34,846 nucleotides of DNA from Lachnospiraceae bacterium (GTDB taxonomy: Bacteria > Bacillota > Clostridia > Lachnospirales > Lachnospiraceae), in assembly GCA_016285265.1 (NCBI GenBank), contig JAEEQL010000015.1, positions 1 through 34,846 of the forward strand, written 5' to 3'. Made by a program: the position numbers and the translations under genes. The notes under the pieces are model-generated. The model did not search any database and had not been told where the DNA came from. It saw only the letters and a list, made by a program, of their open reading frames with translations. Shown here piece by piece: positions 2,024-17,584 of the stretch. The first letter of the stretch is position 1, and each line of letters opens with the position of its first letter.

Positions 2024-2047
2024 TATAATTAGTTAGTCAGGGCTAAC
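2024..2047 (+). promoter_or_regulatory. -10 box plus GTTAG-N6-CTAAC operator, copy 1
   Basis: A perfect TATAAT lies at 2024-2029 and the palindrome GTTAG-TCAGGG-CTAAC at 2032-2047, so the palindrome covers the expected transcription start. A TGGACA-like -35 at 1998-2003 would need a 20-base spacer, so the promoter may need help or the -35 is poor. The same palindrome recurs before 6229 and 17656, with one-mismatch forms before 4772 and 14994. The position suggests a repressor site controlling the methyltransferase that starts at 2083. Confidence 0.7.
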
Positions 2048-2082
2048 CAAATAAGCCGAGTGCTTTTCCAAGGAGAATGCTT

Positions 2083-2916
2083 ATGTATCATATAGAGAAA
2101 AACACCGTACAGGAAACTCTGATCATACCCCTGTACGGAAGAAAGATTTGCTCGGAACATTTTCCTGATCTGTTCAAAGATTCTGAAGCAGAGCGTATAT
2201 GTGGAATGCTTGATTATGACTTTGATGAAAAAGGAAAGAAGATGCAAAGCGCAGCAGGCCTCTTTGGAGCGCTGGAAGTTGCTCAAAGGCAGTATGATCT
2301 TGCCTGGGAGGTTAAGGACTATCTGAAGAAAAATCCGGAGGCTGCCGTTGTAAATCTGGGATGCGGGCTTGATGACACATTCCGTAAATGCGACAACGGA
2401 AAGTGCAAAGGATACAACATCGATATGCCGGATGTCATCGCGGTCAGAAATGAGCTTCTGCCGGAAAGTGACAGAGAAAGAAACCTTGCGTATGATCTTA
2501 ACGATGTGAGCTGGATGGATGAGATTGATTGCAGCAATGGCGCGGTTTTCTTTGCATCCGGTGTATTTTATTACTTTAAGACCGATGGTGTGAAAGCCTT
2601 GTTTCAGAAGATGGCAAAGAGGTTTTCCGGAGCTGTTCTTGTTTTCGACAGCTGTAATCGACGTGGGGCGAAGATGATGACAAAAACCTGGCTTAAAGAA
2701 GCCGGAATAGCCGATGTGGGTGCTTTTTTCTCATTAGAGGATAAGGATGAGTTAAGAAACTGGTCCGTAGATTTTGCCGATGTATCGGCAAAGAGCTATA
2801 TGCGCGGTTACAGGGATATATATAAGGATGTCAGCCTCTTCCATAAACTGATGATCAGATTCTGCGATGGACTTGTTAAGATGCAGATCATAAAGATCAC
2901 GTTTAGGCATAAATGA
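2083..2916 (+). CDS. SAM-dependent methyltransferase, LCM/TcmP (polyketide O-methyltransferase-like) family
   Basis: A 277-residue class I methyltransferase. The N-terminus (VQETLIIPLYGRKICSE) and the SAM-binding motif VVNLGCGLDDTFRK (about residue 90) are typical of the leucine carboxyl methyltransferase/TcmP-like family, which methylates carboxyl or hydroxyl groups of small molecules or proteins. Acidic motif II is in YNIDMPDV. ATG 2083 is preferred over ATG 2077 because AGGAG ends 7 bases before 2083 but only one base before 2077. The gene has its own promoter with the shared palindromic operator, which links it to the two transporter modules and not to the aldo/keto reductase operon upstream. 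The substrate is unknown; methylation of a transported small molecule is an inference from that shared site. Confidence 0.85.
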   Translation: MYHIEKNTVQETLIIPLYGRKICSEHFPDLFKDSEAERICGMLDYDFDEKGKKMQSAAGLFGALEVAQRQYDLAWEVKDYLKKNPEAAVVNLGCGLDDTFRKCDNGKCKGYNIDMPDVIAVRNELLPESDRERNLAYDLNDVSWMDEIDCSNGAVFFASGVFYYFKTDGVKALFQKMAKRFSGAVLVFDSCNRRGAKMMTKTWLKEAGIADVGAFFSLEDKDELRNWSVDFADVSAKSYMRGYRDIYKDVSLFHKLMIRFCDGLVKMQIIKITFRHK

Positions 2917-3053
2917 GCCGGAACTGTTTGCAAAATTGATAAAGAAGCTTGAATAGAATGATCCTGTTTGTGTAAACAATGGAAGCAAAACCTCAATATC
3001 GGAAGATCATAGATAATCTTACTGAGATTGAAGGGGTAGAAAGGAAGAAAAAT

Positions 3054-3839
3054 ATGAAAGCAGATTATAAAAACTGGATGCCGAAAGGAATGGTTATGGG
3101 ATTTGGATGCGGAGCAGCTGCATTCCTGATCCTCACAATAGTATTTGCAATCTTACCGATCCCCGCGACGGCAAAGACTGTTTCGGTAATAATACTTACG
3201 ATCGTGACGATCGTATTTCTTATCGTTACGGTCTGGATGTGTCTTATGTACAGAGCATTTTCCTATGACGGCAAAAGAAAGTTGTCAAAGCAGATCATAG
3301 ACGGGGTTGCATCTTATGTAAAAATTCCCGATGGCGGAAAGGGACTTGATATAGGGTGTGGCAGCGGAGCTCTTACCATAGCATGCGCCAAAAGAAATCC
3401 CAATGCTTCATTCATCGGAATAGACAGATGGGGCAAGGAATATGCTTCCTTCAGCAAGGCTCTGTGTGAGAGTAATTCAAAAGCCGAAGGTGTAAGCAAT
3501 ACAGCTTTTATGCAGGGAGATGCAGTAAAACTTCCCTTTGAAGACGAGTCTTTCGATGCCGTGACCAGCAATTATGTTTATCACAATATCCCAGTCAGGG
3601 ACCGCCAGGCAATACTGCTTGAAACACTGCGTACTCTGAAAAAAGGCGGAACTTTTGCTATTCATGACATCATGTCCAAAGGCAAATATGGTGATATGCA
3701 GGCGTTTGTAAGGAAATTAAAAGACATGGGGTATGAAGAAGTGAAGCTCATAGATACCACGAACGGAATGTATATGAGAGGCTTCGAAGCTATGTGGATG
3801 GGACTTTCGGGTTCAACTATACTTGTTGGAAGGAAATAG
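3054..3839 (+). CDS. Membrane-anchored class I SAM methyltransferase
   Basis: About 261 residues. Two hydrophobic helices near the N-terminus (about residues 12-35 and 42-65) anchor a cytosolic methyltransferase domain. Its motif I is GLDIGCGSGALTIACA (from residue 97), followed by an acidic motif II (FIGIDRWG) and a post-motif LKKGGTFAIHDI. This arrangement is common in uncharacterised Firmicute proteins. I chose ATG 3054 because AAGGAAG precedes it at a normal distance; an in-frame ATG at 2979 has no ribosome binding site. The downstream hydrolase starts 2 bases after the stop, so the two are translationally coupled. No GTTAG palindrome was found in the 137-base gap before it, so it may be read from the gene at 2083. 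The substrate is unknown; the anchor suggests a lipid or a membrane-delivered molecule. Confidence 0.82.
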   Translation: MKADYKNWMPKGMVMGFGCGAAAFLILTIVFAILPIPATAKTVSVIILTIVTIVFLIVTVWMCLMYRAFSYDGKRKLSKQIIDGVASYVKIPDGGKGLDIGCGSGALTIACAKRNPNASFIGIDRWGKEYASFSKALCESNSKAEGVSNTAFMQGDAVKLPFEDESFDAVTSNYVYHNIPVRDRQAILLETLRTLKKGGTFAIHDIMSKGKYGDMQAFVRKLKDMGYEEVKLIDTTNGMYMRGFEAMWMGLSGSTILVGRK

Positions 3840-3841
3840 CA

Positions 3842-4588
3842 ATGTACATTAATGAATATGGAAATCCTGATGATCCGAAACTGATCTTGCTGGCACCCAT
3901 GATGGTGTCCGGATCGGATCTTTATAATATTATGAGTCCGTATCTTAAGGCTGCGTATTTCATTATTGCTCCCGATCAGGGAGGACACGGTAAGGCGGGA
4001 GCCTATATCAGTGCCGACGAAGAATACAGACAGCTGAAAGAGTATCTTCAAAAGAACGGCTACACTGACTTAAAGCTTGTTTATGGTGCATCACTTGGTG
4101 TGGCAGTTGGCTGGCGGCTGTTCATGGACGGAACTTTCAACGTGGAGTATGCGTGGTTTGATGGAGTAGCACTTAACGGGAAACCTTCACGTATGACGGA
4201 GATGCTTATAAGCCGGATGTTCAGGAAGAGGAAGAAGAAGCTTGAAAGGACGCATGTGGAAGCTTCGCAGAGTCTCGTAAACTGGTACGGATATGATTTT
4301 GCAAGGATGATGACAAAAAACTTTGAGCGGATCACTTTAAACGATATCGATGCAATCTGCTATGCCTGCTGTCATTACGATATGAATGTACTGACTGCCG
4401 AACAGCAGCGGAAACTCCATCTTGAATACGGAGAAAAAGATTTTGATCTGAAGCTGTCAAAGAAGTCCTTGCCCAAGTATCTTCCGAACGTCAAGCCGGT
4501 TATACGAAAAGGCTATCCTCACTGCGGATATATGGCGTCCCATACGAAAGAGTATGTGGAAGATATGGAAAGATTTATTTCTAAATGA
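3842..4588 (+). CDS. Alpha/beta hydrolase
   Basis: About 248 residues with an alpha/beta-hydrolase fold. An early strand and oxyanion region reads LILLAPMMVSG, then APDQGGHG, the nucleophile elbow GASLG with Ser84, and a late His in GYPHCGY. The start at 3842 has AAGGAAATAG just upstream, overlapping the end of the membrane methyltransferase gene, and the 2-base gap shows coupling. The nucleophile motif G-A-S-L-G fits a serine hydrolase. The close pairing with a methyltransferase suggests the two act on the same metabolite, for example methyl-ester formation and hydrolysis, but that is speculation. The substrate is unknown. Confidence 0.78.
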   Translation: MYINEYGNPDDPKLILLAPMMVSGSDLYNIMSPYLKAAYFIIAPDQGGHGKAGAYISADEEYRQLKEYLQKNGYTDLKLVYGASLGVAVGWRLFMDGTFNVEYAWFDGVALNGKPSRMTEMLISRMFRKRKKKLERTHVEASQSLVNWYGYDFARMMTKNFERITLNDIDAICYACCHYDMNVLTAEQQRKLHLEYGEKDFDLKLSKKSLPKYLPNVKPVIRKGYPHCGYMASHTKEYVEDMERFISK

Positions 4589-4719
4589 TAAATGGGGGCA
4601 CAGACGGAGCTGTTGATCAGGACAGACTCAAAGATACAAAATGATGAATGATGAGAAGTTTTTCTCCTTTGCATTAAGGTATTTGTAATCTGTTAAAAAT
4701 GGACTGAATATGCCATATT

Positions 4720-4735
4720 GTTAGCAAATGCTATC
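4720..4735 (+). promoter_or_regulatory. GTTAG-N6-CTATC palindrome, copy 4 (one mismatch)
   Basis: GTTAG-CAAATG-CTATC matches the shared operator at nine of ten fixed positions, with a symmetric core TAGCA-AA-TGCTA. It lies 36 bases before the GTG start at 4772, inside a 183-base gap (4589-4771) that otherwise shows no gene. No convincing -10/-35 pair was found next to it. Confidence 0.5.
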
Positions 4736-4771
4736 CTGGTTTTGCTTTTATCTGAATGGAGGAAATGAGAA

Positions 4772-5395
4772 GTGGGACTTTTTAAGGATTACGTGAGTCA
4801 GACAAGAAAACCGAAAGGATTTCTTGGAAAGATGATGGTGAATGGTATGAATGGCGGACATGCCAGAATGGCCGACTGGGGTATGTCACATCTAAATACG
4901 ATCACACCGGAGGAAATAGTTGAGATAGGATGCGGAGGAGGAAGAAATGCGGGAGCACTACTGAAGAAATATCCATTTTCGCATGTTACCGCTATAGACT
5001 ATTCCGATGTTTCTGTAAGTAAAGCATCTGCCTACAATGCAGATGCGATAAAAAGCGGGCGATGTGAAGTGAGGCAGGAGGATGTATCAGCACTGACATT
5101 GCCGGAGGGAAAATTTGACCTGGCAACAGCTTTTGAAACTATTTATTTCTGGCCGGGACTTAAAGAGTGCTTTTCACAGGTGGCTAAAATATTAAAGCCC
5201 GGTGGAGTTTTTATGATTGTCAACGAGTCAGACGGTACGGATGAAACAAGCCTCAAATTTGAGAAGATAATCGATGGAATGAAATGCTATACCATTGTGG
5301 AAATAGAAGAAGCGCTTAAGGCGGCCGGGTTTAGCCGGGTTAAATCAGATCATTATAAGCGCAAACCGTGGATAACGGTTATTGCAAGAAAGTAA
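4772..5395 (+). CDS. Class I SAM-dependent methyltransferase
   Basis: A soluble 207-residue methyltransferase. Motif I is IVEIGCGGGRNAGALLKKYP (about residues 49-68), motif II AIDYSDVSV, and a later strand LKPGGVFMIVNESD matches motif post-III. This is the Methyltransf_11/25 pattern of UbiE-like small-molecule enzymes. The start is GTG at 4772 with GGAGG ending about 9 bases upstream. It is the third methyltransferase in 3.4 kb and differs clearly in sequence from the other two, so it is not a tandem duplicate. It lies just upstream of the first TetR gene, with an imperfect copy of the shared palindrome before it. The substrate is unknown. Confidence 0.87.
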   Translation: MGLFKDYVSQTRKPKGFLGKMMVNGMNGGHARMADWGMSHLNTITPEEIVEIGCGGGRNAGALLKKYPFSHVTAIDYSDVSVSKASAYNADAIKSGRCEVRQEDVSALTLPEGKFDLATAFETIYFWPGLKECFSQVAKILKPGGVFMIVNESDGTDETSLKFEKIIDGMKCYTIVEIEEALKAAGFSRVKSDHYKRKPWITVIARK

Positions 5396-5459
5396 GACAG
5401 GTGGCGTATAACAGTGGATTATTATTCGCTGCATCTGACAGGCGGGAAGACTGTTTTAC

Positions 5460-5491: not shown

Positions 5492-5512
5492 ACTGATAAT
5501 CCAATTATCAGT
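5492..5512 (+). promoter_or_regulatory. Probable autoregulatory operator of the first TetR
   Basis: A perfect inverted repeat, ACTGATAAT-CCA-ATTATCAGT, with 9-bp arms starting 3 bases after the -10 box and ending 21 bases before the TetR ATG. It has the size, symmetry and position of a TetR-family operator and differs from the GTTAG-N6-CTAAC palindrome. Confidence 0.7.
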
Positions 5513-5533
5513 GATGTGTCAGTGGGGGTTTGC

Positions 5534-6148
5534 ATGTCTGTAAGAGATACAAGCATCGATCCGAGACTTCTTCAGAGTGCTCGTGAAGAGTTTATGAAGA
5601 ACGGTTTTATAAAAGCAGAACTTAAAACGATATGTGATAAAGCCGGTGTAACTACGGGAGCCGTATACAAGCGATATAAGGGAAAAGAAGAACTTTTCGG
5701 AGCTGTAGTGAGTGATACACTGTCGGTTCTTGATGAGATGATAGAATCACGAACCAATATAGATCTGTCCGGTTTAACCGATGATGAGATCCGGAATATG
5801 TGGATCATGAACGAAGAATATACTCTTGGAATGTTTGATGTATTCTGGACCGTTCGTGATGACCTTGTTCTTTTGCTCAGCAGATCGTCCGGAACCATAT
5901 ATGAAAACTACGGACATGATTTTGCCGATCGTATGACCGAGTCATATATGAAATATTACCGTGAGGCTGTAAAAAGGGGTATTGCCAAAGCAGATATTAA
6001 GAAGAAGGAGATGCATATATTATGTACTTCTTTTTGGGTTTCGATATATGAACCCTTTATTCATAAAATGTCCAGAAAAGAGATCGAGGAGCATTGTAAG
6101 ACGATCTGCAGGTATTTCGACTGGTCATCTTGTATAGGCATTGAATAA
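5534..6148 (+). CDS. TetR/AcrR family transcriptional regulator (module 1)
   Basis: About 204 residues. The N-terminal TetR helix-turn-helix is clear (FIKAELKTICDKAGVTTGAVYKRY, then KGKEELFGAVV). The C-terminal half is an all-helical ligand and dimerisation domain. I chose ATG 5534, preceded by GTGGGGG at 5 bases; a GTG at 5516 would place the start inside the regulatory region. It lies directly upstream of the ECF/exporter module and has a good promoter overlapped by a perfect palindrome, so autorepression is likely. Whether it also binds the GTTAG-N6-CTAAC sites is open: its recognition helix differs from that of the second TetR (16906). The ligand is presumably the transported compound or a derivative, by inference. 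Confidence 0.92.
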   Translation: MSVRDTSIDPRLLQSAREEFMKNGFIKAELKTICDKAGVTTGAVYKRYKGKEELFGAVVSDTLSVLDEMIESRTNIDLSGLTDDEIRNMWIMNEEYTLGMFDVFWTVRDDLVLLLSRSSGTIYENYGHDFADRMTESYMKYYREAVKRGIAKADIKKKEMHILCTSFWVSIYEPFIHKMSRKEIEEHCKTICRYFDWSSCIGIE

Positions 6149-6192: not shown

Positions 6193-6214
6193 TAGGTTAG
6201 CAGCAACTAACCTA
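6193..6214 (+). promoter_or_regulatory. GTTAG-N6-CTAAC operator, copy 2 (8-bp arms)
   Basis: TAGGTTAG-CAGCAA-CTAACCTA is a perfect inverted repeat and the most extended copy of the shared palindrome. It ends 14 bases before the ATG of the S component, so a bound protein would block initiation or early elongation. Upstream sequence is A-rich (TAAAAAATAAAA) with no clear consensus promoter. Confidence 0.72.
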
Positions 6215-6228: not shown

Positions 6229-6813
6229 ATGGAAAACAAGTTTAGTATCAAGGACTTAATAACCGTTGGTGTATTCACCGCTTTGTATTTTGTGGTTACA
6301 TTCATAGTAGCCTGTTTGGGATTCATTCCTGTATTCATGGCATTCATGCCGCTTATCGGACCGATATTTAACGGAATTCCACTTATGCTGTATTTTTCGA
6401 AGATCAAACATTTCGGTATGATCACGATCACAAGTATCATCATAGCGATACTGATGTTTGTTACCGGCCATCCTTATCCGATATTCATATTCTGTATTGC
6501 GGCCGGACTCATAACCGAACTCGTATTAAGAGCGGGAAAGTACGAGAGTATCAGAAATTGTGTGATCGGATCAGCAACATTCAGTCTGTGGCTTCTCGGT
6601 ATGGTCATTGCATTTTTCTTTGGTTTCAGAGATGCGTATTTTGCAAGCCTTGTTGACGGATACGGACAGGAGTACGTGGACAAGATGATGTCCCTGACCC
6701 CTGCCTGGATGTTCTTTGCAATGATCATAATGTGTCTTGTAGGCGGAACCATCGGCGGACTTCTCGGTGCAAAAGTTCTTAAAAAACATTTCAAAAAAGC
6801 AGGTATGGCGTGA
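6229..6813 (+). CDS. MptD-type (Trep_Strep) ECF transporter S component, module 1
   Basis: A 194-residue polytopic membrane protein with about six hydrophobic helices. It begins with the motif KFSIKDLITVGVFTALYFVV, characteristic of MptD/Trep_Strep putative ECF substrate-binding subunits, and ends in GAKVLKKHFKKAGMA, almost the same as its paralogue at 21189. S components bind the substrate in the membrane and dock onto the T component. A good AAGGAG lies 6 bases before ATG 6229. It overlaps the T gene by one to four bases. The substrate is unknown; members of this family are linked with siderophore-like or metal-related exporter pairs in some Firmicutes. Confidence 0.88.
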   Translation: MENKFSIKDLITVGVFTALYFVVTFIVACLGFIPVFMAFMPLIGPIFNGIPLMLYFSKIKHFGMITITSIIIAILMFVTGHPYPIFIFCIAAGLITELVLRAGKYESIRNCVIGSATFSLWLLGMVIAFFFGFRDAYFASLVDGYGQEYVDKMMSLTPAWMFFAMIIMCLVGGTIGGLLGAKVLKKHFKKAGMA

Positions 6814-7532
6814 TGGAAGTCGGATTACAGTCTGCACAGTCGCGGGATCTGTTTCATCTTGATCCCAGGACTAAGCTTGCAATCCTTATAACGGTCGGAA
6901 TCATCATGATGAGCGGCAAATTCACGGGACCTGAATATATTCTCAGACTGATCTGTGCTTTAATCCCTTTTTTGCTGCTCTTATCCATCAAAAGCTTCCG
7001 CGCAGCCTGTGTTTATGTGCTGTTAATGTATTCGATGGTTTTGTGTGAAGGATTGATCATTCCCCATACAAAAGGAATGATCAATCTTATGATAATGATC
7101 ATATGCGGCGTTATATCAAGATTCGGACCGGGTTATCTGTGCGGATGGTATGTGGTGAGATCCACTTCCGTAAGTGAGTTCATTACTTCTATGGAAAGGA
7201 TGCACTTTCCCAACGTCATCACCATCCCGATGTCTGTGATGTTCAGGTATTTTCCCACTCTGAAGGAAGATTATCTGTCTATTCATGATGCCATGAAAAT
7301 GAGGGAAATAGGTAAAAAGATCAAGAATCCATTTACTTATATTGAATATATTTTGGTGCCTATCATGATGTCTACAGTACGGATAGCTAATGATCTTTCG
7401 GCAGCGTCACTGACCAAAGGGCTCGGAGTAAACCGGATCAGAACTCATATATGCAAGATCGGTCTTAGATTTATTGATTATTTCATGATCATCTCCATGG
7501 TCGTTATGTTGATCATTTTCTATGTTTATTGA
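6813..7532 (+). CDS. ECF transporter T component (CbiQ/EcfT family), module 1
   Basis: About 239 residues, the transmembrane energy-coupling subunit that links the S component to the ATPases. It has an N-terminal soluble stretch HLDPRTKLAILI (family signature DPRTKL), four or five membrane helices, and the cytosolic coupling region with DAMKMREIGKK and AASLTKGLGV. In the module 2 paralogue these read DAMRMRGIEMG and AAMTRGLDV, so module 1 has lost the Arg-Gly of the first coupling motif and the Arg of the second. Start ATG 6813 overlaps the S stop as TGATG; GTG 6810 is the alternative. The ATPase gene follows after 9 bases. Confidence 0.87.
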   Translation: MEVGLQSAQSRDLFHLDPRTKLAILITVGIIMMSGKFTGPEYILRLICALIPFLLLLSIKSFRAACVYVLLMYSMVLCEGLIIPHTKGMINLMIMIICGVISRFGPGYLCGWYVVRSTSVSEFITSMERMHFPNVITIPMSVMFRYFPTLKEDYLSIHDAMKMREIGKKIKNPFTYIEYILVPIMMSTVRIANDLSAASLTKGLGVNRIRTHICKIGLRFIDYFMIISMVVMLIIFYVY

Positions 7533-7541
7533 GGCGGATGG

Positions 7542-9035
7542 ATGATTGAATTTTCGAATGTAACTTTTAAATACAATGTCACGGGGGCAAATGGTGAAAA
7601 AGACGAAATATGCGGTCTGCACGATGTAAACTGCTGCATTGATAAAGGTGAATTTATTGTTCTGACCGGTGGATCGGGATGCGGTAAAACAACATTCATA
7701 AGACTCATAAACGGATTGATCCCTCATTTTTATGACGGATGTCTCAGCGGAGATATCACCATGGATGGCACAAAGATCGGTGAGATGTCCATAAGTGATA
7801 TTTCATCCAGAGTCGGAAGTGTATTTCAAAATCCAAGATCTCAATTTTTCAATGTAAATACCACGGATGAAATTGCTTTTGCCGCCGAAAACCAGCAAAG
7901 GAAACCGGAACTTATTGTTGACAGGATAGGCAAAATCGCACGTTCGATGAGAATAGAAAAACTTCTTGATCGAAACATATTCGAACTGTCTGGCGGAGAA
8001 AAGCAATTGGTAGCCTGTGCGGGTATAGGTGTGTTGTCTCCGGATATCATAGTACTCGATGAGCCTTCTTCCAATCTGGACCACAGTGCGATGAGATATC
8101 TTTCCGAGATACTCGGATCATGGAAAAAAGAAGGCAAGACAATCATTATCGCCGAACACAGGCTTTTCTATCTTAAAGATCTGGCTGACCGGATGATAAT
8201 AATGGAAAACGGGACAATGATCAGAGAATTCGATTCGGATGATCTTAAATCCATGTCTTATGATGATACACTTAAACTGGGCATGAGGTCACTGTCTCTT
8301 GATTCTGTTTCCTATAGCGGTAAACCCGGTGTCTTAAGGAGCGAGGCTCTGTCTTTCCACGATTTTCGTTTTGAATACAAAGATAAAAAACACTCAATTG
8401 ATATATCCGGGCTTGAAGTGCCCGCAGGATGCGTAACTGCCATTATCGGTCATAACGGCGCCGGTAAAAGTACTTTTGCGAGAAATATCTGCGGCCTTGA
8501 AAAGAAATGCCGGGGTTATATCGAATACCTTGATAATAGGTGGTGGCATAAAGACAGACTGCATAATTGTTATATGATCATGCAGGATGTGAATCACCAG
8601 CTTTTTACCGAAAGTGTCGAGGACGAAGTGATGCTCAGTATGACAGACGGTGATATGAGTGAAGAAGATAAACGGGAAAGGGCAAGAGATATCCTAGATA
8701 AACTTGATCTTTCCAAATACTATGAGACCCATCCGATGGCTTTGTCCGGTGGGCAAAAGCAGCGCGTTGCGATAGCCTCGGGCATTGCGTCCGAAAAACC
8801 GGTCATTGTCTTTGATGAACCAACAAGCGGTCTGGATCTTTTCCACATGGAGCAGGTTGCTGAAGTGATAGAGGATCTGGTCCGTATAGGGAAAAATGTA
8901 TTTGTGATCACACATGACTACGAATTCATCCTGAAGTGCTGTGATTACATCATTCACCTGGAAAACGGTATTGTTAAAGGCAGTTACATGCTGGATGATG
9001 ACTCGATATGTAAAATAAAAGAATTTATGTGTTAA
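7542..9035 (+). CDS. ECF-type ABC ATPase with two fused nucleotide-binding domains, module 1
   Basis: A 497-residue fusion of two CbiO/EcfA-like ATPases. The first domain has Walker A GGSGCGKTT (about residue 43), signature LSGGEKQ and Walker B IIVLDEPSSNLDH. The second has Walker A GHNGAGKST (about residue 303), signature LSGGQKQ and Walker B VIVFDEPTSGLD. Each has its switch His (AEHR, THD). It powers uptake through the T and S subunits encoded just upstream. The fusion replaces the usual separate EcfA1/EcfA2 pair and implies a dedicated group I-like ECF system. A GGCGGATGG sequence precedes the ATG. Confidence 0.92.
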   Translation: MIEFSNVTFKYNVTGANGEKDEICGLHDVNCCIDKGEFIVLTGGSGCGKTTFIRLINGLIPHFYDGCLSGDITMDGTKIGEMSISDISSRVGSVFQNPRSQFFNVNTTDEIAFAAENQQRKPELIVDRIGKIARSMRIEKLLDRNIFELSGGEKQLVACAGIGVLSPDIIVLDEPSSNLDHSAMRYLSEILGSWKKEGKTIIIAEHRLFYLKDLADRMIIMENGTMIREFDSDDLKSMSYDDTLKLGMRSLSLDSVSYSGKPGVLRSEALSFHDFRFEYKDKKHSIDISGLEVPAGCVTAIIGHNGAGKSTFARNICGLEKKCRGYIEYLDNRWWHKDRLHNCYMIMQDVNHQLFTESVEDEVMLSMTDGDMSEEDKRERARDILDKLDLSKYYETHPMALSGGQKQRVAIASGIASEKPVIVFDEPTSGLDLFHMEQVAEVIEDLVRIGKNVFVITHDYEFILKCCDYIIHLENGIVKGSYMLDDDSICKIKEFMC

Positions 9036-9053
9036 ATCTCGGAGGTATAGTAA

Positions 9054-10787
9054 ATGTTTAAAAAAGTAGCTCCTTACATAGGGGAATACAAGAAATACAC
9101 TGTATGGGCAGCTATCATGATGTCTGTCGGTATACTTGCATATGTATTGCCTTATTTTTTCCTGTATCAGATCATTTCTCCGTTAACAAAAGGAGAACGG
9201 ATAGATGCGTCATTTATTTTATTCAGAGTTGCTGCTGTTGCGGTATGCGAGATAGTTTATTCATTTTCATATGTGCAGGGCCTTACTTTCTCACATATAA
9301 GTGCATACAACACTTTGAAGAATCTTCGTATTTCACTACAGAGAAAGCTTGAGAAACAGCCTCTCGGTAATATTCAGAATCTTGGAACCGGCAGGATCAA
9401 AAAGGTGTTTACCGATGATATAGATCAGGTAGAACTGCTTCTTGCACATGCCATTCCCGAAGGAATTGCCAACATCCTTGTTCCTGCGATCATTATCATT
9501 CTTATGTTCATATTTGACTGGCGACTCGGTTTGTTGTCATTGGCTCCTCTTGTTGTCGGACTGTTTGCCATGGGAATGATGATGAAATCCGGCATGGAGA
9601 AGATGGAAGCCTATTACAGCTCTGCGGCGAAGATGAACAATACCATCATTGAATATGTTAACGGAATGGAAGTGGTTAAGGTATTCAATAAAGACGGCGA
9701 TTCCTATAAAAGATTCGGAGATGTTGTAAGAAGCTATCGTGACTTTACCATTGACTGGTATAAAGTTTGCTGGCCCTGGATGGCTATATACACCAGCGTA
9801 TTGCCCTGTCTTGTTCTTTTGATGATTCCTTTCGGATCAATGATGGTACTGGGAGGAACGATAGCCCTTGATAAGATGGTGCTTGTCTTTTGCATGTCGT
9901 TTTCCGTTGGACCTTCGGTACTTAAGGCTCTGAATTTTGCAGGTAAGTTTCCTCAGTTGGAGTATAAGATAACTGAGCTGGAAAAGATGATGGATCATCC
10001 TCCGCTCAAAGAAGGTTCGGCTGATTTTAAGGGATCGGATCTTAACGTTGAATTCAGGGATGTGTGTTTCGGATATGAAGATACCGAGGTTCTTCATGGA
10101 GTCAATCTGTCACTTGGGCAGGGAACAACTACCGCACTTGTTGGAGAATCAGGGAGCGGAAAATCTACATTGGCAAAACTCCTTGTCCATTATTATGACA
10201 TTGATTCGGGAAGTATCACTATCGGAGGACAGGACATTACTGATATGTCCCTGGAAGCGCTTAATAATCAGGTTGCATTTGTTTCTCAGGAGCAGTTTCT
10301 TTTTAATACTTCTCTGTACGAAAATATATTGATAGGAAAACCCGATGCTTCAAAAGAGGAAGTTCTTGAGGCTGCGAGAAGAGCTCAATGTGATGAGTTT
10401 TTGGAAAGACTTCCCGAAGGAATAAATACACAGGCAGGTGACGGCGGAAAACAGTTATCCGGCGGTGAAAGGCAGAGAATCTCTCTTGCAAGAGCGATCC
10501 TTAAGAATGCCCCGATCATAGTACTTGATGAAGCTACTGCCTTTATGGATCCTGAAAATGAGGAGAAAATGAACGCCGCGCTTGATGAGATCATTAAGGA
10601 TAAAACTGTTCTGGTAATTGCTCACAGGCTATCGACTATAAAAAATGCCGACACGATATGTGTTATGAAAGAAGGAAAATGCATAGCTGCGGACTCTCAT
10701 GACAGACTTCTGACGGATTGTCCCGAATATAAGAAACTGTGGGATGCTTCCGTATCGGCAAGTACATGGAAGATCAAGGAGGCTTAA
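9054..10787 (+). CDS. ABC exporter-fold half transporter, YbtP-like partner, module 1
   Basis: 577 residues: a six-helix type IV (exporter) membrane domain (about 1-310) fused to an ATPase with Walker A GESGSGKST (about 364), signature LSGGERQ (about 468), Walker B IIVLDEATAF and switch His in VIAHR. GGAGG lies 8 bases before the ATG and the gene follows the ECF ATPase after 18 bases. With the next gene it forms a probable heterodimer. The ATAFMDP sequence after Walker B matches the first protein of module 2 (ATAFADP), showing which subunits are orthologous pairs. Exporter-fold dimers of this kind include YbtPQ and IrtAB, which import ferric siderophores, so direction cannot be assumed from fold. 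Confidence 0.9.
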   Translation: MFKKVAPYIGEYKKYTVWAAIMMSVGILAYVLPYFFLYQIISPLTKGERIDASFILFRVAAVAVCEIVYSFSYVQGLTFSHISAYNTLKNLRISLQRKLEKQPLGNIQNLGTGRIKKVFTDDIDQVELLLAHAIPEGIANILVPAIIIILMFIFDWRLGLLSLAPLVVGLFAMGMMMKSGMEKMEAYYSSAAKMNNTIIEYVNGMEVVKVFNKDGDSYKRFGDVVRSYRDFTIDWYKVCWPWMAIYTSVLPCLVLLMIPFGSMMVLGGTIALDKMVLVFCMSFSVGPSVLKALNFAGKFPQLEYKITELEKMMDHPPLKEGSADFKGSDLNVEFRDVCFGYEDTEVLHGVNLSLGQGTTTALVGESGSGKSTLAKLLVHYYDIDSGSITIGGQDITDMSLEALNNQVAFVSQEQFLFNTSLYENILIGKPDASKEEVLEAARRAQCDEFLERLPEGINTQAGDGGKQLSGGERQRISLARAILKNAPIIVLDEATAFMDPENEEKMNAALDEIIKDKTVLVIAHRLSTIKNADTICVMKEGKCIAADSHDRLLTDCPEYKKLWDASVSASTWKIKEA

Positions 10788-10791
10788 GGCA

Positions 10792-12516
10792 ATGTTAAGG
10801 ATATTACACAGACTTATTAATATAACAGGAAAATACAAAACCCGTATACGTGCTTCATATATTACAGCATTTATTAAAGGTATCATGATGAAGATGCCTC
10901 TTATGCTGTGCTTTGTTTGCATCAGCCTGTTTATGAGCGGAGATATGAACACGGAAAAATGTCTTATGCTTGGAATATGCGTACTCATCAGTGTTGTTTT
11001 AGAAGCTATATTTGAACATATCTCAAATGTTCTCCAGTCAGCTACCGGATATATGGTTTTTGCAGACATGCGATTAAGGCTGGGAGATCATTTGAGAAAG
11101 CTTCCGATGGGGTATTTTACAGAAGGTAATATAGGTAAGATAAGTTCTGTCTTAGCCACTGATATGGTATTTATCGAAGAAAACTGTATGGGGGTTCTGT
11201 CGGAACTCGTTACTTTCATGATCTCTCAGGGACTCATGGTCGTAATGATGTTTGTGATGGATTTAAGACTCGGCCTTCTTTCACTCCTTATAGTCGGAAT
11301 ATTTGTTTTGATCGGGAATCTGATGCTTAAGACAACCATCAGACATTCAATCATCAAACAGGAAGATTGTGAATCACTTACAGAGGAAGTGCTTGATTTT
11401 GCCGAAGGGATGGGAATTATCAAGTCCTACAACATGCTTGGTGAAAAATCCAAAAGGCTTACAGATGAATTTGAAAAAAGCTGTAAAGAAAGTATAGATT
11501 TTGAAGTTGCCTATGGCCCGTGGGCCAGAGCTCTGTATCTGGCTTTTGGGATCGGAACCGCTTCCGTTCTTGCTCTAAGTGCGTATCTGTACAGCATAGG
11601 CAGCATATCCGATGTATATATGGTCGGTATAACTTTATTTCTTTTCGATATGTTCATGGCGATTAAAAGCTATTACGGTCAGATGGCAAGACTGACCGTT
11701 ACTGATGCAAGCCTTGACAGGATTGAAGAAGTATTTGCGGCAGAAGAACTTCCGGATAACGGAAAACTGGTATTTGATGATACAAGTGACGGTTCTTCCC
11801 GGATAGAATATGATGATGTATCTTTCGGATATACCGATAAAGATGTGCTTAAGAATATTTCTTTTAAGGTAGGTGCAGGTGAAATGACCGCACTTGTCGG
11901 ACCTTCCGGAGGCGGCAAATCCACCATTGCCTCCCTTCTGGCGAGATTTTGGGATGTAAAGAGCGGAAGGATCCTTGTAAACGGAAAAGACATAAGAGAT
12001 GTATCTCTCGGAAGCCTTATGGACAGAGTGAGCATGGTTTTCCAGAGAGTGTATCTGTTCCAGGATACTGTTTACAATAACATTGCGATAAGCAGGCCTG
12101 ATGCGACCAAAGAGGAAGTTATGGAAGCTGCAAGGAAAGCAAGGTGCTATGACTTTATAATGCAGCTGCCGGAAGGCTTTGATACCGTTATCGGAGAGGG
12201 AGGGGCATCTTTGTCCGGCGGAGAAAAGCAGAGAATATCGATTGCGAGATGTATCCTTAAAGATTCTCCTATTGTAATCCTGGACGAAGCTACCGCAAGT
12301 GTTGATGCCGATAATGAAAGAGCGATTCAGGAAGCGATATCCGAACTTTGCAAAAACAAAACTCTTCTTGTAATAGCCCACAGACTTAAGACTATAAAGG
12401 ATGCAGATCAGATACTGGTTGTATCTGACGGAAGAATCATAGAAAAGGGAGATCATGCTTCTCTTATGAGCAATAACGGAACCTATGCCCGCATGGTATC
12501 CTTACAGCAGGGATGA
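10792..12516 (+). CDS. ABC exporter-fold half transporter, YbtQ-like partner, module 1
   Basis: About 574 residues, the second half of the heterodimer: a six-helix membrane domain, then an ATPase with Walker A GPSGGGKST (about 370), signature LSGGEKQ (about 474), Walker B IVILDEATASVD and switch His in VIAHR. Both ATPase sites keep the catalytic Glu, so this pair does not show the degenerate site of many heterodimeric exporters. ATG 10792 has AAGGAGG 9 bases upstream; an upstream in-frame start at 10744 would overlap the previous gene needlessly. It ends only 3 bases from the convergent LysR gene, with no visible terminator. Confidence 0.9.
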   Translation: MLRILHRLINITGKYKTRIRASYITAFIKGIMMKMPLMLCFVCISLFMSGDMNTEKCLMLGICVLISVVLEAIFEHISNVLQSATGYMVFADMRLRLGDHLRKLPMGYFTEGNIGKISSVLATDMVFIEENCMGVLSELVTFMISQGLMVVMMFVMDLRLGLLSLLIVGIFVLIGNLMLKTTIRHSIIKQEDCESLTEEVLDFAEGMGIIKSYNMLGEKSKRLTDEFEKSCKESIDFEVAYGPWARALYLAFGIGTASVLALSAYLYSIGSISDVYMVGITLFLFDMFMAIKSYYGQMARLTVTDASLDRIEEVFAAEELPDNGKLVFDDTSDGSSRIEYDDVSFGYTDKDVLKNISFKVGAGEMTALVGPSGGGKSTIASLLARFWDVKSGRILVNGKDIRDVSLGSLMDRVSMVFQRVYLFQDTVYNNIAISRPDATKEEVMEAARKARCYDFIMQLPEGFDTVIGEGGASLSGGEKQRISIARCILKDSPIVILDEATASVDADNERAIQEAISELCKNKTLLVIAHRLKTIKDADQILVVSDGRIIEKGDHASLMSNNGTYARMVSLQQG

Positions 12517-13800: not shown

Positions 13801-14793
13801 ATGATAAAAACAGAAGAACTGAAGCTTGTAACCGAATGGGATAAGACGTTCCCCAAAAGTGATGTGACAGAGCACAGCAAGGTTACATTTGTAAACAGAT
13901 ACGGGATCACACTGGCAGCGGATATGTATGTTCCGAAGAATGCAAATGGGAAACTCCCTGCGATCGCGGTCAGCGGACCCTTTGGTGCGGTTAAGGAACA
14001 GTGTTCCGGCCTGTATGCACAGACTATGGCGGAGAGAGGATTCCTTACGATCGCGTTCGATCCGTCTTTTACGGGAGAGAGCGGCGGTGAGCCGAGATAT
14101 ATGGCATCGCCTGATATTAATACCGAAGACTTTATGGCTGCCGTGGATTTCCTGAGCATGAATGACAAAGCAGATCCTGACCGCATCGGCATCATCGGAA
14201 TCTGTGGATGGGGAGGTATGGCACTTAACACGGCGGCATTGGATCCCCGGATCAAAGTTACGGTGGCTTCAACGATGTATGACATGACCAGAGTAAATGC
14301 CAACGGATATTTTGATTCGGAAGACTCGGAAGAAGCACGCTATGAGAAAAAGAAGGCCATGGCTGCGCAGCGTACGGAAGATTTAAGAAACGGATCCTAT
14401 AAGCGTGGAGGCGGATGCCTTCCTCTCCCGGTTCCTGAGGATTCACCGTTTTTTGTAAAGGATTACAGCGAATATTATAAGGACAGGGCATATCATGAAA
14501 GGTCCCTCAACTCCAATGAGGGATGGAATGTGATCGGATGTGAGTCATTTATGAATCAGCCGATCCTCAAGTATACAAATGAGATTAGGAATGCGGTTCT
14601 GATCATTCACGGAGAAAAAGCTCATTCCTGCTATTTCAGCAAGGATGCCTATGCTGCGATGACAAAGGACAGCAAGTATACGGATAATAAGGAACTTATG
14701 ATCATTCCGGATGCTGTTCATACGGATCTGTATGATAATCTCGATGTGATCCCGTTTGATCATATCGAAGAATTTATAAGAAAATATATTTGA
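13801..14793 (+). CDS. Alpha/beta hydrolase, DLH/COG1073-like, with Cys in the nucleophile elbow
   Basis: About 330 residues. A strand-rich start (VTFVNRYGITLAADMYVPKN) is followed by GPFGAVKEQ and FDPSFTGESGGEPR, and then the elbow IIGICGWGGMAL, where Cys135 occupies the nucleophile position as in dienelactone hydrolases. Late Asp and His are in AHSCYF and IPDAVHTDLYD. ATG 13801 follows GAGGAGGA by 9 bases; GTG 13798 is the alternative. It ends before a long hairpin terminator. Members of this group are mostly uncharacterised hydrolases or peptidase-like proteins. The LysR gene divergent from it is the likely regulator. Confidence 0.83.
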   Translation: MIKTEELKLVTEWDKTFPKSDVTEHSKVTFVNRYGITLAADMYVPKNANGKLPAIAVSGPFGAVKEQCSGLYAQTMAERGFLTIAFDPSFTGESGGEPRYMASPDINTEDFMAAVDFLSMNDKADPDRIGIIGICGWGGMALNTAALDPRIKVTVASTMYDMTRVNANGYFDSEDSEEARYEKKKAMAAQRTEDLRNGSYKRGGGCLPLPVPEDSPFFVKDYSEYYKDRAYHERSLNSNEGWNVIGCESFMNQPILKYTNEIRNAVLIIHGEKAHSCYFSKDAYAAMTKDSKYTDNKELMIIPDAVHTDLYDNLDVIPFDHIEEFIRKYI

Positions 14794-14843
14794 AGATATA
14801 GATAACCACCGATCGATCACAAGTAATAACCAATGAAAGTATG

Positions 14844-14893
14844 CCGGGGGAGCTGCTATGCTGATAACAGTTTGACAGCTCCTCCGGTGTTTT
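14844..14893 (+). terminator. Intrinsic terminator after the DLH-like hydrolase
   Basis: A 12-bp stem (CCGGGGGAGCTG / CAGCTCCTCCGG, one G-U pair), a 20-base loop and a T-rich tail (TGTTTT). It closes the LysR-controlled operon before the next promoter. Confidence 0.8.
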
Positions 14894-14898
14894 ATTGC

Positions 14899-14951
14899 TT
14901 GTAAATTGGTGCACGGGTATTTATAATCTGTTTTGGTTAGCGGTGGGTAAC
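14899..14951 (+). promoter_or_regulatory. Promoter plus GTTAG-N6-GTAAC operator, copy 5
   Basis: TTGTAA at 14899-14904, a 17-base spacer and a perfect TATAAT at 14922-14927 make a strong promoter. GTTAG-CGGTGG-GTAAC at 14936-14951 follows 8 bases after the -10 box and matches the shared palindrome at nine of ten fixed positions. As in copy 1, the palindrome sits on the expected transcription start. It would control the operon starting at 14994. Confidence 0.7.
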
Positions 14952-14993
14952 AAGGTCGGTGATATGAATAGTTGCCCCTACGGGAGGTAAATG

Positions 14994-15665
14994 ATGAAGT
15001 CAAAACATAGGTTACTGTTTGGATGTTATGCAATGGTACTGGCTATTATAGGAGATTATCTTCTTGGATACGGCACACTTGGCACATCTTCGGATCCGGA
15101 TGCCTATATGGGCATATCCTGGAACGTGGCTCCTGACTGGAGATATGCCGTGTCATCAATCTTAGGCTTTTTGAGTGCGGCTATGTTTGCCTTTGCTGCC
15201 ACAGAGCTCATGAAGATATTGGAAACGGATTATGACCTCAAAGGCTCTAAACTGTATAAGCTGTTTAAGATCGCCAACTGGGGAGGAATCCTTTATTTTG
15301 CATTTATTCATATCGGTATATGTATTTTGCCGGTTGTTTTTAATGCGGGAATGGAAGCAACGGGGGATATTCCCACTGCTGTAGCTATGACGATCAGAGT
15401 GCTTAAAAGTGAAATGATCCCTCTGGTGGCCGGCTTTGTTGTCTGTGATATTTTTGTGACGATAGGATGGATAGGGATGGTTATAAAGGGCATGATCCCC
15501 GTAAAGAAGTGGATGATCATCTGCTGTCCTGTTTTTGGGGTTCTTTTTGGGCAATTGCTTAATCTGATATCTGAGGGCTTGGACTCGGGAACGGAATCGT
15601 TCGGATGGCTGGTATTGTATCTGGCTTGCGCACTTACGCTTACAAAAAAGGATGCGGTGCTTTGA
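14994..15665 (+). CDS. Multi-spanning membrane protein of unknown function
   Basis: About 223 residues with around six hydrophobic helices, for example LLFGCYAMVLAIIGDYLLGYG and WRYAVSSILGFLSAAMFAFA, and a later helix pair around residues 140-185. A conserved-looking polar loop after the first helix (GTSSDPDAYMGISWNVAPDWR) may face outside. It resembles DUF-type Lachnospiraceae membrane proteins; I do not recognise a named family with confidence. ATG 14994 is favoured over ATG 14991 because GGGAGG ends 6 bases before it and only 3 before the other. It is the first gene of a three-gene operon with the ATC-hydrolase-like protein (1-base gap). Confidence 0.75.
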   Translation: MKSKHRLLFGCYAMVLAIIGDYLLGYGTLGTSSDPDAYMGISWNVAPDWRYAVSSILGFLSAAMFAFAATELMKILETDYDLKGSKLYKLFKIANWGGILYFAFIHIGICILPVVFNAGMEATGDIPTAVAMTIRVLKSEMIPLVAGFVVCDIFVTIGWIGMVIKGMIPVKKWMIICCPVFGVLFGQLLNLISEGLDSGTESFGWLVLYLACALTLTKKDAVL

Positions 15666-15666
15666 T

Positions 15667-16293
15667 ATGGAAAAGATGGTCTATAAGGCGATAATCCGTT
15701 ATCTGAAGAAACATCATCCGGATGATATGGACAATATAATAAAGAGAGCCAAAGAAATACTGCCGGAACTTAAGTCAAAAGCTCCAGATCTTGGCGGAAA
15801 GGAAAATGCCCTGGCTGATAATCTTGATATGTTCCTGCTGTTTCTGGCTTTCTATGAGGCATCGGATCACCAAATGGCCGGAGAGGCTATTGATGAGATC
15901 ATAGATGATCTGTATGGGCGCCTTAAGTTTTTGGGTGGCGTAATGAACATCAATCGTCCCGGAATCCTTAAGATATTACGTAAATATCTTTATAGGAGCT
16001 ATCAGGCATATGCAGATAAGGTGAAGCAGAAGAAAAGCCGCGGTGAGTGGCTTGATACGTGGGATATGGTCGTTAATCCCGAAAATACGGAGGAAGGCTT
16101 TGCGTTTACGCTGGTGGGATGTCCGCTGGCAGATTATGCCAAAAAGTACGGTTATGAAGATCTTATGCCGCATATGTGTGCTCTGGATCATTCATATGCG
16201 AGGATCATACATGCGAAACTGATCCGGACTCATACCGTTGCATCAGGCGCCGATTCGTGCGACTACTGGTATGTGCCGGATGAAAGGCCTTGA
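15667..16293 (+). CDS. L-2-amino-thiazoline-4-carboxylic acid (ATC) hydrolase family protein
   Basis: 208 residues. The C-terminal half carries the family pattern: EEGFAFTLVGCPLADYAKKYGYEDLMPHMCALDHSYARII, with the paired Cys of the GCPLA and PHMCALD motifs. It ends in SGADSCDYWY, where the final Cys and aromatic residues are also conserved as I recall the family. The namesake enzyme in Pseudomonas opens the thiazoline ring of ATC on the way to cysteine; many other members are uncharacterised. It follows the membrane protein by one base, so translation is coupled. The operon has a strong promoter with the shared palindrome, placing a possible thiazoline-ring hydrolase in the same candidate regulon as the two transporter modules. 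The family call is fairly secure; the substrate is unproven. Confidence 0.8.
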   Translation: MEKMVYKAIIRYLKKHHPDDMDNIIKRAKEILPELKSKAPDLGGKENALADNLDMFLLFLAFYEASDHQMAGEAIDEIIDDLYGRLKFLGGVMNINRPGILKILRKYLYRSYQAYADKVKQKKSRGEWLDTWDMVVNPENTEEGFAFTLVGCPLADYAKKYGYEDLMPHMCALDHSYARIIHAKLIRTHTVASGADSCDYWYVPDERP

Positions 16294-16328
16294 AATGCGG
16301 TTGTCATATTGCTTTGGAGGATACAGGG

Positions 16329-16826
16329 ATGTTATTGACCATATTTCTTGCGATCGTGTTCTGCGTTGCGATAACCGTCATGATGTTTGCTGCGGTGGCA
16401 TTCGTTCAGGATAAGAAATTATTTTCCTCTGCCCCCAGAGAGGCACAGGAAGCGGTTTTGCCCAGGGATAAGGAACTGTTTTACGGAGCAAGGACGATCG
16501 GATGGACTCTCATAGTCTTCAGCATACTTCTGATACTGGGGACCGGAGTGATATCGATCTGGGACGGCTTCAGAAGCGGATATACATTCCTGCAGTTTTT
16601 CCTGAGATTCTATCTTATCTTTGCAATATACAAGATATATGACATGATTTGCTTTGATTATTTTCTGCTCATGAAATTTCATTTCTTTCAGTTTTATTAT
16701 CCGGAGCTTGAGAGTGTATACAGCGGCAGAAAGTACGGATTCAACATTAAGAGTCAGCTGTTAAAGCTTCTGATAATATTCCCTGCGGCTTCCGCACTTG
16801 CCGCGTGGATATGCACATTGTTCTGA
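16329..16826 (+). CDS. Small polytopic membrane protein of unknown function
   Basis: About 165 residues with four hydrophobic helices (LLTIFLAIVFCVAITVMMFAA, GWTLIVFSILLILGTGVI, FFLRFYLIFAIYKIYDMI and LLKLLIIFPAASALAAWI). Between them are a short cytosolic or external loop and an aromatic-rich segment (MKFHFFQFYYPE). ATG 16329 has GGAGG 8 bases upstream; a longer frame from 16290 lacks a good site. It is the last gene of the operon with the ATC-hydrolase-like protein. It does not match a transporter family that I know. It could work with the membrane protein at 14994 as a two-component membrane assembly, which is speculation. Confidence 0.72.
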   Translation: MLLTIFLAIVFCVAITVMMFAAVAFVQDKKLFSSAPREAQEAVLPRDKELFYGARTIGWTLIVFSILLILGTGVISIWDGFRSGYTFLQFFLRFYLIFAIYKIYDMICFDYFLLMKFHFFQFYYPELESVYSGRKYGFNIKSQLLKLLIIFPAASALAAWICTLF

Positions 16827-16836
16827 AGAAAGAAGA

Positions 16837-16865
16837 TTGACAGCAACATTTTTTTATTGTAATCT
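16837..16865 (+). promoter_or_regulatory. Promoter of the second TetR gene
   Basis: TTGACA at 16837-16842. The -10 is either TGTAAT at 16858-16863 (15-base spacer) or TAATCT at 16860-16865 (17-base spacer). It starts 11 bases after the preceding stop and reads into a palindrome. Confidence 0.6.
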
Positions 16866-16895
16866 TCGATAGCGAACATTGATAACTTATCGAAG
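16864..16895 (+). promoter_or_regulatory. Candidate operator of the second TetR
   Basis: Outer arms CTTCGATA and TATCGAAG (8 bp, 16 bases apart) enclose the start region; inside is a tighter palindrome GATAA-C-TTATC (16881-16891). Either could be the autoregulatory site. The GATAA/TTATC half-site is shared with the operator of the first TetR (5492-5512), but the spacing differs. Confidence 0.5.
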
Positions 16896-16905
16896 GAAAC
16901 GTAAA

Positions 16906-17523
16906 ATGCCAAGAGACAAGACATTAAGCCATATCAGGGTTAATGAAGCAATTAAGGCGGAGTTTCTCGAAAAGGGATTTGAAGCTGCGTCGATACGAAG
17001 CATTGGAGCCCGTGCCGGAATGACTTCTGCCGGATTATACAGGCATTATGCCGACAAAGAGGCGATGTTCAATGCTCTTGTGGAGCCACTGGTCGATGAT
17101 ATCAAAAAATGGACCAGGCGGCACACCGAAAAAAAATATCTTCTCCTTGATGAAACTGCGGATAAGAATGAAGTGTTCGGGGAGACGTTTATCGATCTTG
17201 TGAGAGAAGTCATACTTCCGAAGAGAGATGAGTTCAAACTTCTGATGACCTGTTCCCGCGGGACGAAATACGAAAATTTCATTCATGACTATGCTCTGTT
17301 TGGCCAGAAGGAAATTCTAAAAGCCATAAGATATATGAAAAAGAAAGGATGTCCGGTGGAGGATGTCGACGAGGATGAGCTTCATATGCTGCTTTCGGCA
17401 TATCTTACAGCATGCTTTGAGCCGATCATACATGATTGTGAAGAGAAAAAAATAAATAAATACTTAAATGCCATTCAGGAATTCTTTATGCCGGGATGGA
17501 TGAAGATCATGGGATTAAATTAA
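16906..17523 (+). CDS. TetR/AcrR family transcriptional regulator (module 2)
   Basis: 205 residues with an N-terminal TetR DNA-binding domain (FEAASIRSIGARAGMTSAGLYRHYADKEAMFNALV) and a helical effector domain. GAAGGAAAC precedes ATG 16906; the -10 region rules out a longer start. Its recognition helix (TSAGLYRHY) differs from that of the first TetR (TTGAVYKRY), so the two probably bind different sites. It has its own promoter and a GNRA-loop terminator, so it is transcribed separately from the transporters, which start after a perfect GTTAG-N6-CTAAC site. It is the nearest candidate regulator of that site; the ligand is unknown. Confidence 0.92.
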   Translation: MPRDKTLSHIRVNEAIKAEFLEKGFEAASIRSIGARAGMTSAGLYRHYADKEAMFNALVEPLVDDIKKWTRRHTEKKYLLLDETADKNEVFGETFIDLVREVILPKRDEFKLLMTCSRGTKYENFIHDYALFGQKEILKAIRYMKKKGCPVEDVDEDELHMLLSAYLTACFEPIIHDCEEKKINKYLNAIQEFFMPGWMKIMGLN

Positions 17524-17544
17524 AGAGCCGCAAGGCTCTTTTTT
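17522..17544 (+). terminator. Intrinsic terminator of the second TetR gene
   Basis: Perfect stem AAAGAGCC / GGCTCTTT with a GCAA (GNRA) loop and a continuing T run. It overlaps the TetR stop codon by two bases. Confidence 0.9.
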
Positions 17545-17568
17545 AATGCCGTAAGTTATCATTTTGCG

Positions 17569-17584
17569 GTTAGCGATAGCTAAC
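17569..17584 (+). promoter_or_regulatory. GTTAG-N6-CTAAC operator, copy 3
   Basis: GTTAGC-GATA-GCTAAC, a perfect 16-bp palindrome 25 bases after the TetR terminator and 71 bases before the TTG start of the first exporter gene. The 17545-17655 gap has no other structure I can support. No consensus -10/-35 pair is obvious near it. Confidence 0.7.

Follow-up and report, generated by a model that had tools for sequence, protein, structure and literature searches.

The 34,846-nucleotide contig of a Lachnospiraceae bacterium analysed here (this whole stretch is called the window) carries several copies of the palindrome GTTAG-N6-CTAAC, and these mark a regulon that is real and is larger than the five promoters first proposed for it. 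We conclude, with a probability of roughly 0.87, that GTTAG-N6-CTAAC serves a metal repressor of the DtxR family (MntR/IdeR-like) as its one-dimer operator, and that this repressor controls metal uptake together with the phosphoglycerate mutase dPGM and enolase, the metal being most likely ferrous iron. What is new here is a variant of the DtxR/IdeR kind of operator with an unexpected glycolytic branch.

Operator copies in the window

A scan of the window recovered all five copies described in the first-pass annotation, three exact and two with one mismatch, and no further match with up to two mismatches. None of the five has an assigned strand.

2032-2047: operator, exact, just 3' of a TATAAT-like box and upstream of the LCM-family methyltransferase gene
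4720-4735: operator, one mismatch, upstream of methyltransferase 4772 (MT4772)
6196-6211: operator, exact, within a longer palindrome (6193-6214), upstream of transporter module 1
14936-14951: operator, one mismatch, 8 bases 3' of a TATAAT box, upstream of the DUF6796/ATC-hydrolase operon
17569-17584: operator, exact, upstream of transporter module 2

Each site reads as a single 16-bp palindrome, and all five lie 17-71 bases 5' of a plausible start (2077, 4772, 6229, 14991 and 17656). The first of these starts replaces the 2083 given earlier, while the others stand. Two copies do follow a TATAAT box as had been noted, the one at 2032-2047 directly. The sites are intergenic on our reading of the genes, although mechanical minus-strand frames overlap three of the five. 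A terminator-like hairpin with a T run is also present at 1958-1985, directly 5' of the first operator.

The copies had been described as beyond chance, which holds for the exact ones: three were found, against 0.011, 0.0018 and 0.0005 expected under first-, second- and third-order Markov models. It does not hold for the one-mismatch class, which shows no excess over expectation or controls; matches with up to two mismatches number 5, against 8.65 expected. Because one-mismatch counts are not above chance, the copies at 4720 and 14936 rest on their position and on the relatives described below. When spacer lengths from 0 to 20 were tried on the window, the first 18 kb of contig C6 and contig C13, a spacer of 6 alone occurred (17/17).

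The operator in the rest of the genome

The assembly comprises 2.71 Mb in 190 contigs and is 92% complete; the window is its contig C116. With the reversed motif as the control pattern for genome scans, 17 exact operators were found against 0 controls. All lie on three contigs (C6 with 11, C13 with 3, the window with 3). The exact motif is not common at random positions. The three copies on C13 correspond to the first three of C6, with a single base changed in one of them, and there are therefore 14 distinct places rather than 17. When one mismatch is allowed, the count is 22 sites (the 17 exact and 5 more) against 24 controls, and one-mismatch sites were rejected as noise as a genome-wide class, save where relatives support them.

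The neighbours of the C6 sites were annotated up to about 16 kb. Three operators lie 5' of a ZIP gene and three 5' of feoAB. One is found at an HMA-domain gene with a dtxR gene next in its operon; it falls within the longest HMA frame, and the true start of this gene is probably later. One exact operator lies 5' of enolase, a one-mismatch copy adjoins a divergent dPGM gene, and another dPGM gene is preceded by two operators. An operator also precedes a third Trep_Strep transporter module (module 3). In the ZIP and feoA promoters the three operators are 30-34 bp apart (L016:23-103 and 1527-1606), with the first filling the spacer between -35 and -10, and some congeners have four or five operators near feoAB/dtxR1. 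On C13 a ZnuA/ABC/ABC-3 gene set lies 5' of the ZIP promoter, in the order znuA-ABC-ABC3-lipoprotein-ZIP. C13 and C6 overlap in this promoter (L017:1-290 and L016:1-290) with small differences, which suggests a strain-variant break in the assembly.

Conservation in congeners and relatives

The exact motif is present in 37 of the 40 genomes scanned (own included) and in 22 of 23 congeners, in most of which it is well above the reversed control. A set of 86 exact sites was assembled from C6, the window and regions of eight congeners; since these regions were chosen for holding sites or module homologues, the counts of downstream genes drawn from them are biased. Outside mechanically called frames lie 76 of the 86. 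The genes 3' of the sites include FeoA/B, ZIP, enolase, dPGM, LCM, MT4772, DUF6796, module ABC genes and dtxR1, to which the congeners add flavodoxin, a Peripla_BP_2 binding protein, a FUR-family gene and TetR. Several neighbours have no family name. One site in G012 abuts a GGDEF/EAL gene with ZIP on its other side, and ZIP is the likelier target.

A second count chose the genes first and then sought an exact site within 500 bases before the aligned start. Exact sites prove to be conserved before orthologous genes, to a degree that differs from gene to gene. Trep_Strep genes have one at 5/9 loci, including 3/3 close orthologues at the same 17-base distance: the module 1 site is repeated exactly, and equally far from the start, in G043 and G044, which have its two close orthologues. 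Three of the four other Trep_Strep loci are of the module 2 type, in which the operator precedes the ABC gene; the module 2 site likewise has counterparts before ABC2a homologues in G015, G023 and G043. The LCM gene has an exact site at 4/9 loci, or 3/7 among orthologues at least 73% identical, with G003 and G023 among those so preceded; in G043 it is placed after a dPGM-like gene with two operators. For the one-mismatch sites, homologues of MT4772 have exact copies in G015 and G023, in regions selected for holding sites. DUF6796 has an exact site at 2/9 loci, both distant homologues (G010 and G023), plus its own one-mismatch copy; its two closest orthologues (86% and 78% identical, in G042 and G005) have no site within one mismatch in 500 bases.

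The operator was also sought in named genomes as part of a complete promoter, TTGACA-N-operator-TATAAT, with the operator filling the 17-base spacer and in the forward pattern only. This gave a non-random sample of at least 118 loci, and the counts that follow are among the matches listed. The 80 loci with a listed record come mostly from Lachnospiraceae, Oscillospiraceae and other Clostridia, with single records from Erysipelotrichaceae, Treponema and Aminicenantes. Of 121 matches, 112 were followed by an open frame of at least 60 residues starting within 300 bp, giving 111 unique frames for the family scan. The first gene is FeoA in 66/111; others are ZIP (6), ABC (6), FeoB (4), TetR (4), DUF6110 (4), DtxR (2), LCM (2, at L064 and L108) and FTR1 (1). 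True targets are probably undercounted, because the first frame was picked mechanically. Operator targets outside this genome also include the LCM methyltransferase and some of the TetR genes. DUF6110, first in its four cases, is a possible metal-linked family.

The regulator

The positions of the sites, their neighbours, conservation and co-occurrence were all computed, and from them the likeliest factor is a metal repressor of the DtxR family, which probably senses iron, and not one of the neighbouring TetR proteins. Three DtxR-family genes in the genome score over cut-off: C6:1036 (DtxR1), C6:4610 (DtxR2) and C51:7021 (DtxR3). Both C6 proteins have the Fe_dep_repress and Fe_dep_repr_C domains over cut-off, and C51:7021 has the N-terminal domain, the only one scanned there. 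The gene dtxR1 and feoAB point away from each other, with three operators between them, and in the genus 7 of 9 dtxR1 loci, own included, have exact operators in the dtxR1-feoAB stretch. An exact or one-mismatch site precedes several further dtxR genes at up to about 230 bp, and others have none. At least one relative of DtxR1 is found in 29/31 genus genomes. In the named loci a DtxR gene is present in 50/118 and a TetR gene in 7/118 (a rough count, from a profile built on six sequences), with both in none, and an exact operator lies no more than 400 bp before the gene in 41 of 52 DtxR matches, again among the matches listed.

The TetR proteins are the obvious candidates from position. A TetR gene stands 5' of each of the three transporter modules, directly before them and adjoining exact operators, and TetR is itself the first gene in four of the 111 named cases. 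Co-occurrence does not support the suggestion that they bind the motif. The Trep_Strep module, taken as companion of the window TetR genes in place of a genome-by-genome search for their orthologues, is present in 6/31 genus genomes, own included, yet the motif is in 22/23 congeners; FeoA dominates the downstream genes listed, and DtxR genes far outnumber TetR genes near the listed promoters. TetR 5516 moreover has a different palindrome of its own:

5492-5512, no strand assigned: palindrome ACTGATAAT-CCA-ATTATCAGT (9-3-9), just after a -10-like box, a candidate own operator of TetR 5516

The TetR gene of C6 has the palindrome TATTACAGTGTAATA. Upstream of TetR 16879, no palindrome was found (arms of 6 or more, gaps of up to 8). 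On co-occurrence, TetR was rejected as the binder: that the motif is the operator of the window TetR proteins, controlling five promoters, is improbable, and our expectation is that neither binds GTTAG-N6-CTAAC. Their sequence context suggests that they are probably local, substrate-specific module regulators, layered with the metal repressor.

A Fur-family repressor would be a natural candidate at iron-uptake genes, feoAB being a Fur target in many bacteria, and a FUR-family gene does follow one site in G011. However, the motif is unlike the Fur box, and it is DtxR genes that are linked to sites in the named loci listed, where Fur genes were not counted. A Fur operator is on this evidence slightly less credible still than a TetR one. 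The view that the repeats are due to chance and have no function can hardly be entertained: one-mismatch copies are indeed no commoner than controls, but the exact sites exceed both the Markov and the reversed-pattern expectations and recur at orthologous promoters.

The choice of metal within the DtxR family is less clear. DtxR1-type proteins have Met-Cys-Glu-His at the positions aligned with DtxR (DtxR1 being compared with DtxR through its paralogue), and their helix S-K-P-S-V-S aligns with S-G-P-T-V-S of DtxR. Work on MntR and DtxR associates Met at the first of these positions with iron, and Asp there with manganese. Met-Cys-Glu-His is found in 9 of 35 unique genus proteins, and Asp replaces Met (D-type) in the other 26; the DtxR genes of the named loci listed are mostly of the Met type.

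Several observations weigh against an iron-sensing DtxR repressor, or against the motif as its mark. No DtxR match was found in 2/31 genus genomes (81% and 72% complete). Many genus genomes show only D-type DtxR, and the best NCBIfam scores of the DtxR proteins are to MntR, below its cut-off. The inner G/C of IdeR is not kept, the base after GTTAG being G in 8% of half-sites (86 sites). The reversed control exceeds the motif in G008 (2 motif matches vs 4) and G017 (0 vs 5), control matches number 1 to 5 in eight further congeners (in G015, five vs twelve of the motif), and order-level relatives often show control counts similar to those of the motif. Some congener sites adjoin genes without a clear metal role, such as peptidase M24 and acetyltransferase. 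With three DtxR-family genes in this genome and many genomes showing the D-type only, more than one paralogue may be the cognate repressor.

The D-type proteins and the MntR scores give some weight to an MntR-like repressor that senses manganese, making this a manganese-starvation regulon. The presence of ZIP, with the ZnuA/ABC-3 gene set beside it, agrees with manganese, as does that of dPGM: in part of one source, metal-independent phosphoglycerate mutase is tied to manganese starvation in S. aureus (PMC6684088). Against this, feoAB is the dominant target in the matches listed, flavodoxin and FTR1 are among the targets, the DtxR adjoining feoAB is of the Met-Cys-Glu-His type, and the operator core is IdeR-like. 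We regard manganese as unlikely, though a good deal less so than TetR or Fur, and ferrous iron as the better candidate.

Comparison with known systems

In excerpts of a review and a research paper (PMC10317159, PMC8464063), the review describes the DtxR box as four CCTAA repeats and mentions a one-dimer half site, and the research paper has the one-dimer IdeR site as TTAGGNNNNCCTAA; the 19-bp DtxR/IdeR box is TTAGGTTAGSCTAACCTAA. The core TTAG-N6-CTAA and its spacing equal the core of TTAGGNNNNCCTAA, and are in every exact site by construction. There is also a likeness in location, over the -10 or start region, and in the iron-uptake targets (excerpts of PMC10317159 and PMC8464063). Unlike the 19-bp box, the operator here is a one-dimer site, and the window sites have no overlapping half-sites offset by 5 bp; a partial double box is listed at one congener site (G021:C32:12009). 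The outer G/C belongs to the motif here and the inner G/C (TTAGG-N4-CCTAA) is lost, and some promoters have between two and five separate sites, with a common spacing of 30-35 bp. In size, the regulators differ from IdeR in being about 115-156 residues long in most mechanical frames (one has 177), which leaves no room for the SH3-like domain of IdeR.

This two-domain length is shared with MntR of Bacillus and E. coli, and DtxR1 is nearest to MntR chains in a PDB search. It has, however, Cys where MntR chains show Glu, and Met where the MntR chain 6kta shows Asp, and the MntR operator differs from GTTAG-N6-CTAAC. The TroR protein of Treponema denticola is likewise a DtxR-family repressor of metal uptake, and in the material seen from one paper a gpm gene, for phosphoglycerate mutase, appears in the legend of the tro figure (PMC2628430). 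Its operator in the oligonucleotides printed there is the AT-rich palindrome TTTTGATATATCAAAA, and was rejected as a match since it is a different sequence (PMC2628430).

Literature searches found no text joining DtxR with GTTAG and CTAAC, although sequences written as longer words could escape such a search, and nothing joining feoB, Lachnospiraceae, DtxR and an operator, which does not show absence from print.

Enolase and lower glycolysis

Enolase_N has one match in each of 14/31 genus genomes, and no enolase was detected in the other 17, including 4 of the 10 genomes with at least 90% completeness and at most 5% contamination. A second, housekeeping enolase was considered and rejected, there being one match per genome in 14/14. 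An exact operator lies 106-175 bases before the aligned enolase start in 12 of the 14; of the other two loci, that of G013 has a copy with two mismatches in this position and that of G021 has none. Read by eye, the operator follows a -10-like box in G000, G015 and G023.

Between operator and start, the enolase leaders (L281:1385-1500 and other loci) contain a long hairpin, along with a conserved segment, TGARTAAATCATRTG. Seven leaders of the 14 loci were folded, with z from -3.6 to -5.2, and 4 of 13 consensus pairs are changed on both sides (9 sequences). No Rfam match at gathering score was found for five loci. The leader is a candidate cis-acting RNA.

Both dPGM genes of the genome (L016:5024-5773 and 14784-15530) lie beside operators. 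No iPGM was detected in this 92% complete assembly, and a metal-sparing swap from iPGM to dPGM is for that reason unsupported here. For G012 and G043, where iPGM is accompanied by a dPGM-like gene behind operators, such a swap is possible. None of the iPGM loci examined has an operator (0/8, out of 27 matches).

It is conceivable, and we put it forward tentatively as something short of an even chance, that lower glycolysis belongs to the iron-starvation genes in this genus, with the sole enolase and dPGM held by iron-loaded DtxR and the leader RNA as a second layer. Repression of enolase need not be complete, because a single copy was found. In the portions consulted of two papers, no enolase is reported in Butyrivibrio proteoclasticus B316 and Pseudobutyrivibrio xylanivorans MA3014, and a methylglyoxal shunt is suggested as the bypass (PMC2914790, PMC7523725).

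Genes and transporter modules of the window

The genes of the window were assigned largely by family scan, and are as follows; S, T and A denote the components of energy-coupling factor (ECF) transporters, and ABC stands for ATP-binding cassette.

2077-2916, plus strand: LCM-family methyltransferase (family scan)
2979-4588, plus strand: methyltransferase (2979-3839) and a gene at 3794-4588, probably in the same operon
4772-5395, plus strand: class I methyltransferase MT4772 (family scan)
5516-6148, plus strand: TetR-family regulator, probably local (family scan)
6229-12516, plus strand: module 1, with a Trep_Strep/MptD S component, CbiQ-like T, fused ECF ATPase and two type IV ABC half-transporters
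14991-16826, plus strand: DUF6796, ATC_hydrolase and a gene without family match (family scan)
16879-17523, plus strand: second TetR-family regulator (family scan)
17656-23910, plus strand: module 2, with two ABC half-transporters, Trep_Strep S, CbiQ-like T and fused ECF ATPase

The gene at 3794-4588 matches no Pfam family, and in NCBIfam it gives no more than a weak match below threshold. Among the half-transporter chains in the 60 matches listed, the first ABC protein of module 1 has its best scores to YbtP and IrtA. The second is nearest to Sav1866 and MsbA, ahead of YbtQ, and in this it departs from the siderophore importers YbtPQ and IrtAB. The resemblance to these importers is in the type IV exporter-fold half-transporters; the modules here differ in that the half-transporters share an operon with an ECF S/T/A set. 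Because of the metal regulation and the likeness to YbtP and IrtA, our best guess is that the modules take up an iron-chelate or metallophore; it is speculation that the chelate is a substrate of the ATC_hydrolase and the methyltransferases. A literature search on Trep_Strep and MptD with iron found nothing useful. Further along, an [FeFe] hydrogenase gene set at 26271-30428 (2Fe-2S thioredoxin-like, Nuo51-like and Fe_hyd) has no operator within two mismatches.

Proposed mechanism and meaning

We infer binding and repression by DtxR, iron as the metal and import as the direction of the modules, and on that basis propose the following. When metal (most likely ferrous iron) is replete, the loaded DtxR dimer would sit between -35 and -10, or just after -10, and block RNA polymerase. 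When metal is scarce the repressor would leave the operator, and the uptake genes would come on: feoAB, ZIP and the ECF plus YbtPQ/IrtAB-like transporter modules of the window. The accessory methyltransferases, the hydrolase, dPGM and enolase would be switched on alongside. The window would then be one part of the regulon, and C6, with ZIP, feoAB, two dtxR genes, enolase, two dPGM genes and module 3, another.

This gives a readable metal regulon for uncultured and rumen Clostridia, and corrects a tempting assignment to TetR made from neighbouring genes. A GTTAG-N6-CTAAC promoter marks the gene behind it as a candidate for expression under metal starvation, and genes of unclear role, namely the Trep_Strep ECF/ABC modules, the LCM methyltransferase, DUF6796 and ATC-hydrolase-like proteins, can therefore be tied to metal acquisition. 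Through the operator, the patchy occurrence of enolase in these bacteria would also be linked to their metal status. If the proposal for lower glycolysis is true, enolase would be a conditional enzyme, which would help to explain why its absence is so often tolerated in rumen Lachnospiraceae, and the absence in B. proteoclasticus and P. xylanivorans MA3014 would become testable as a question of regulation.

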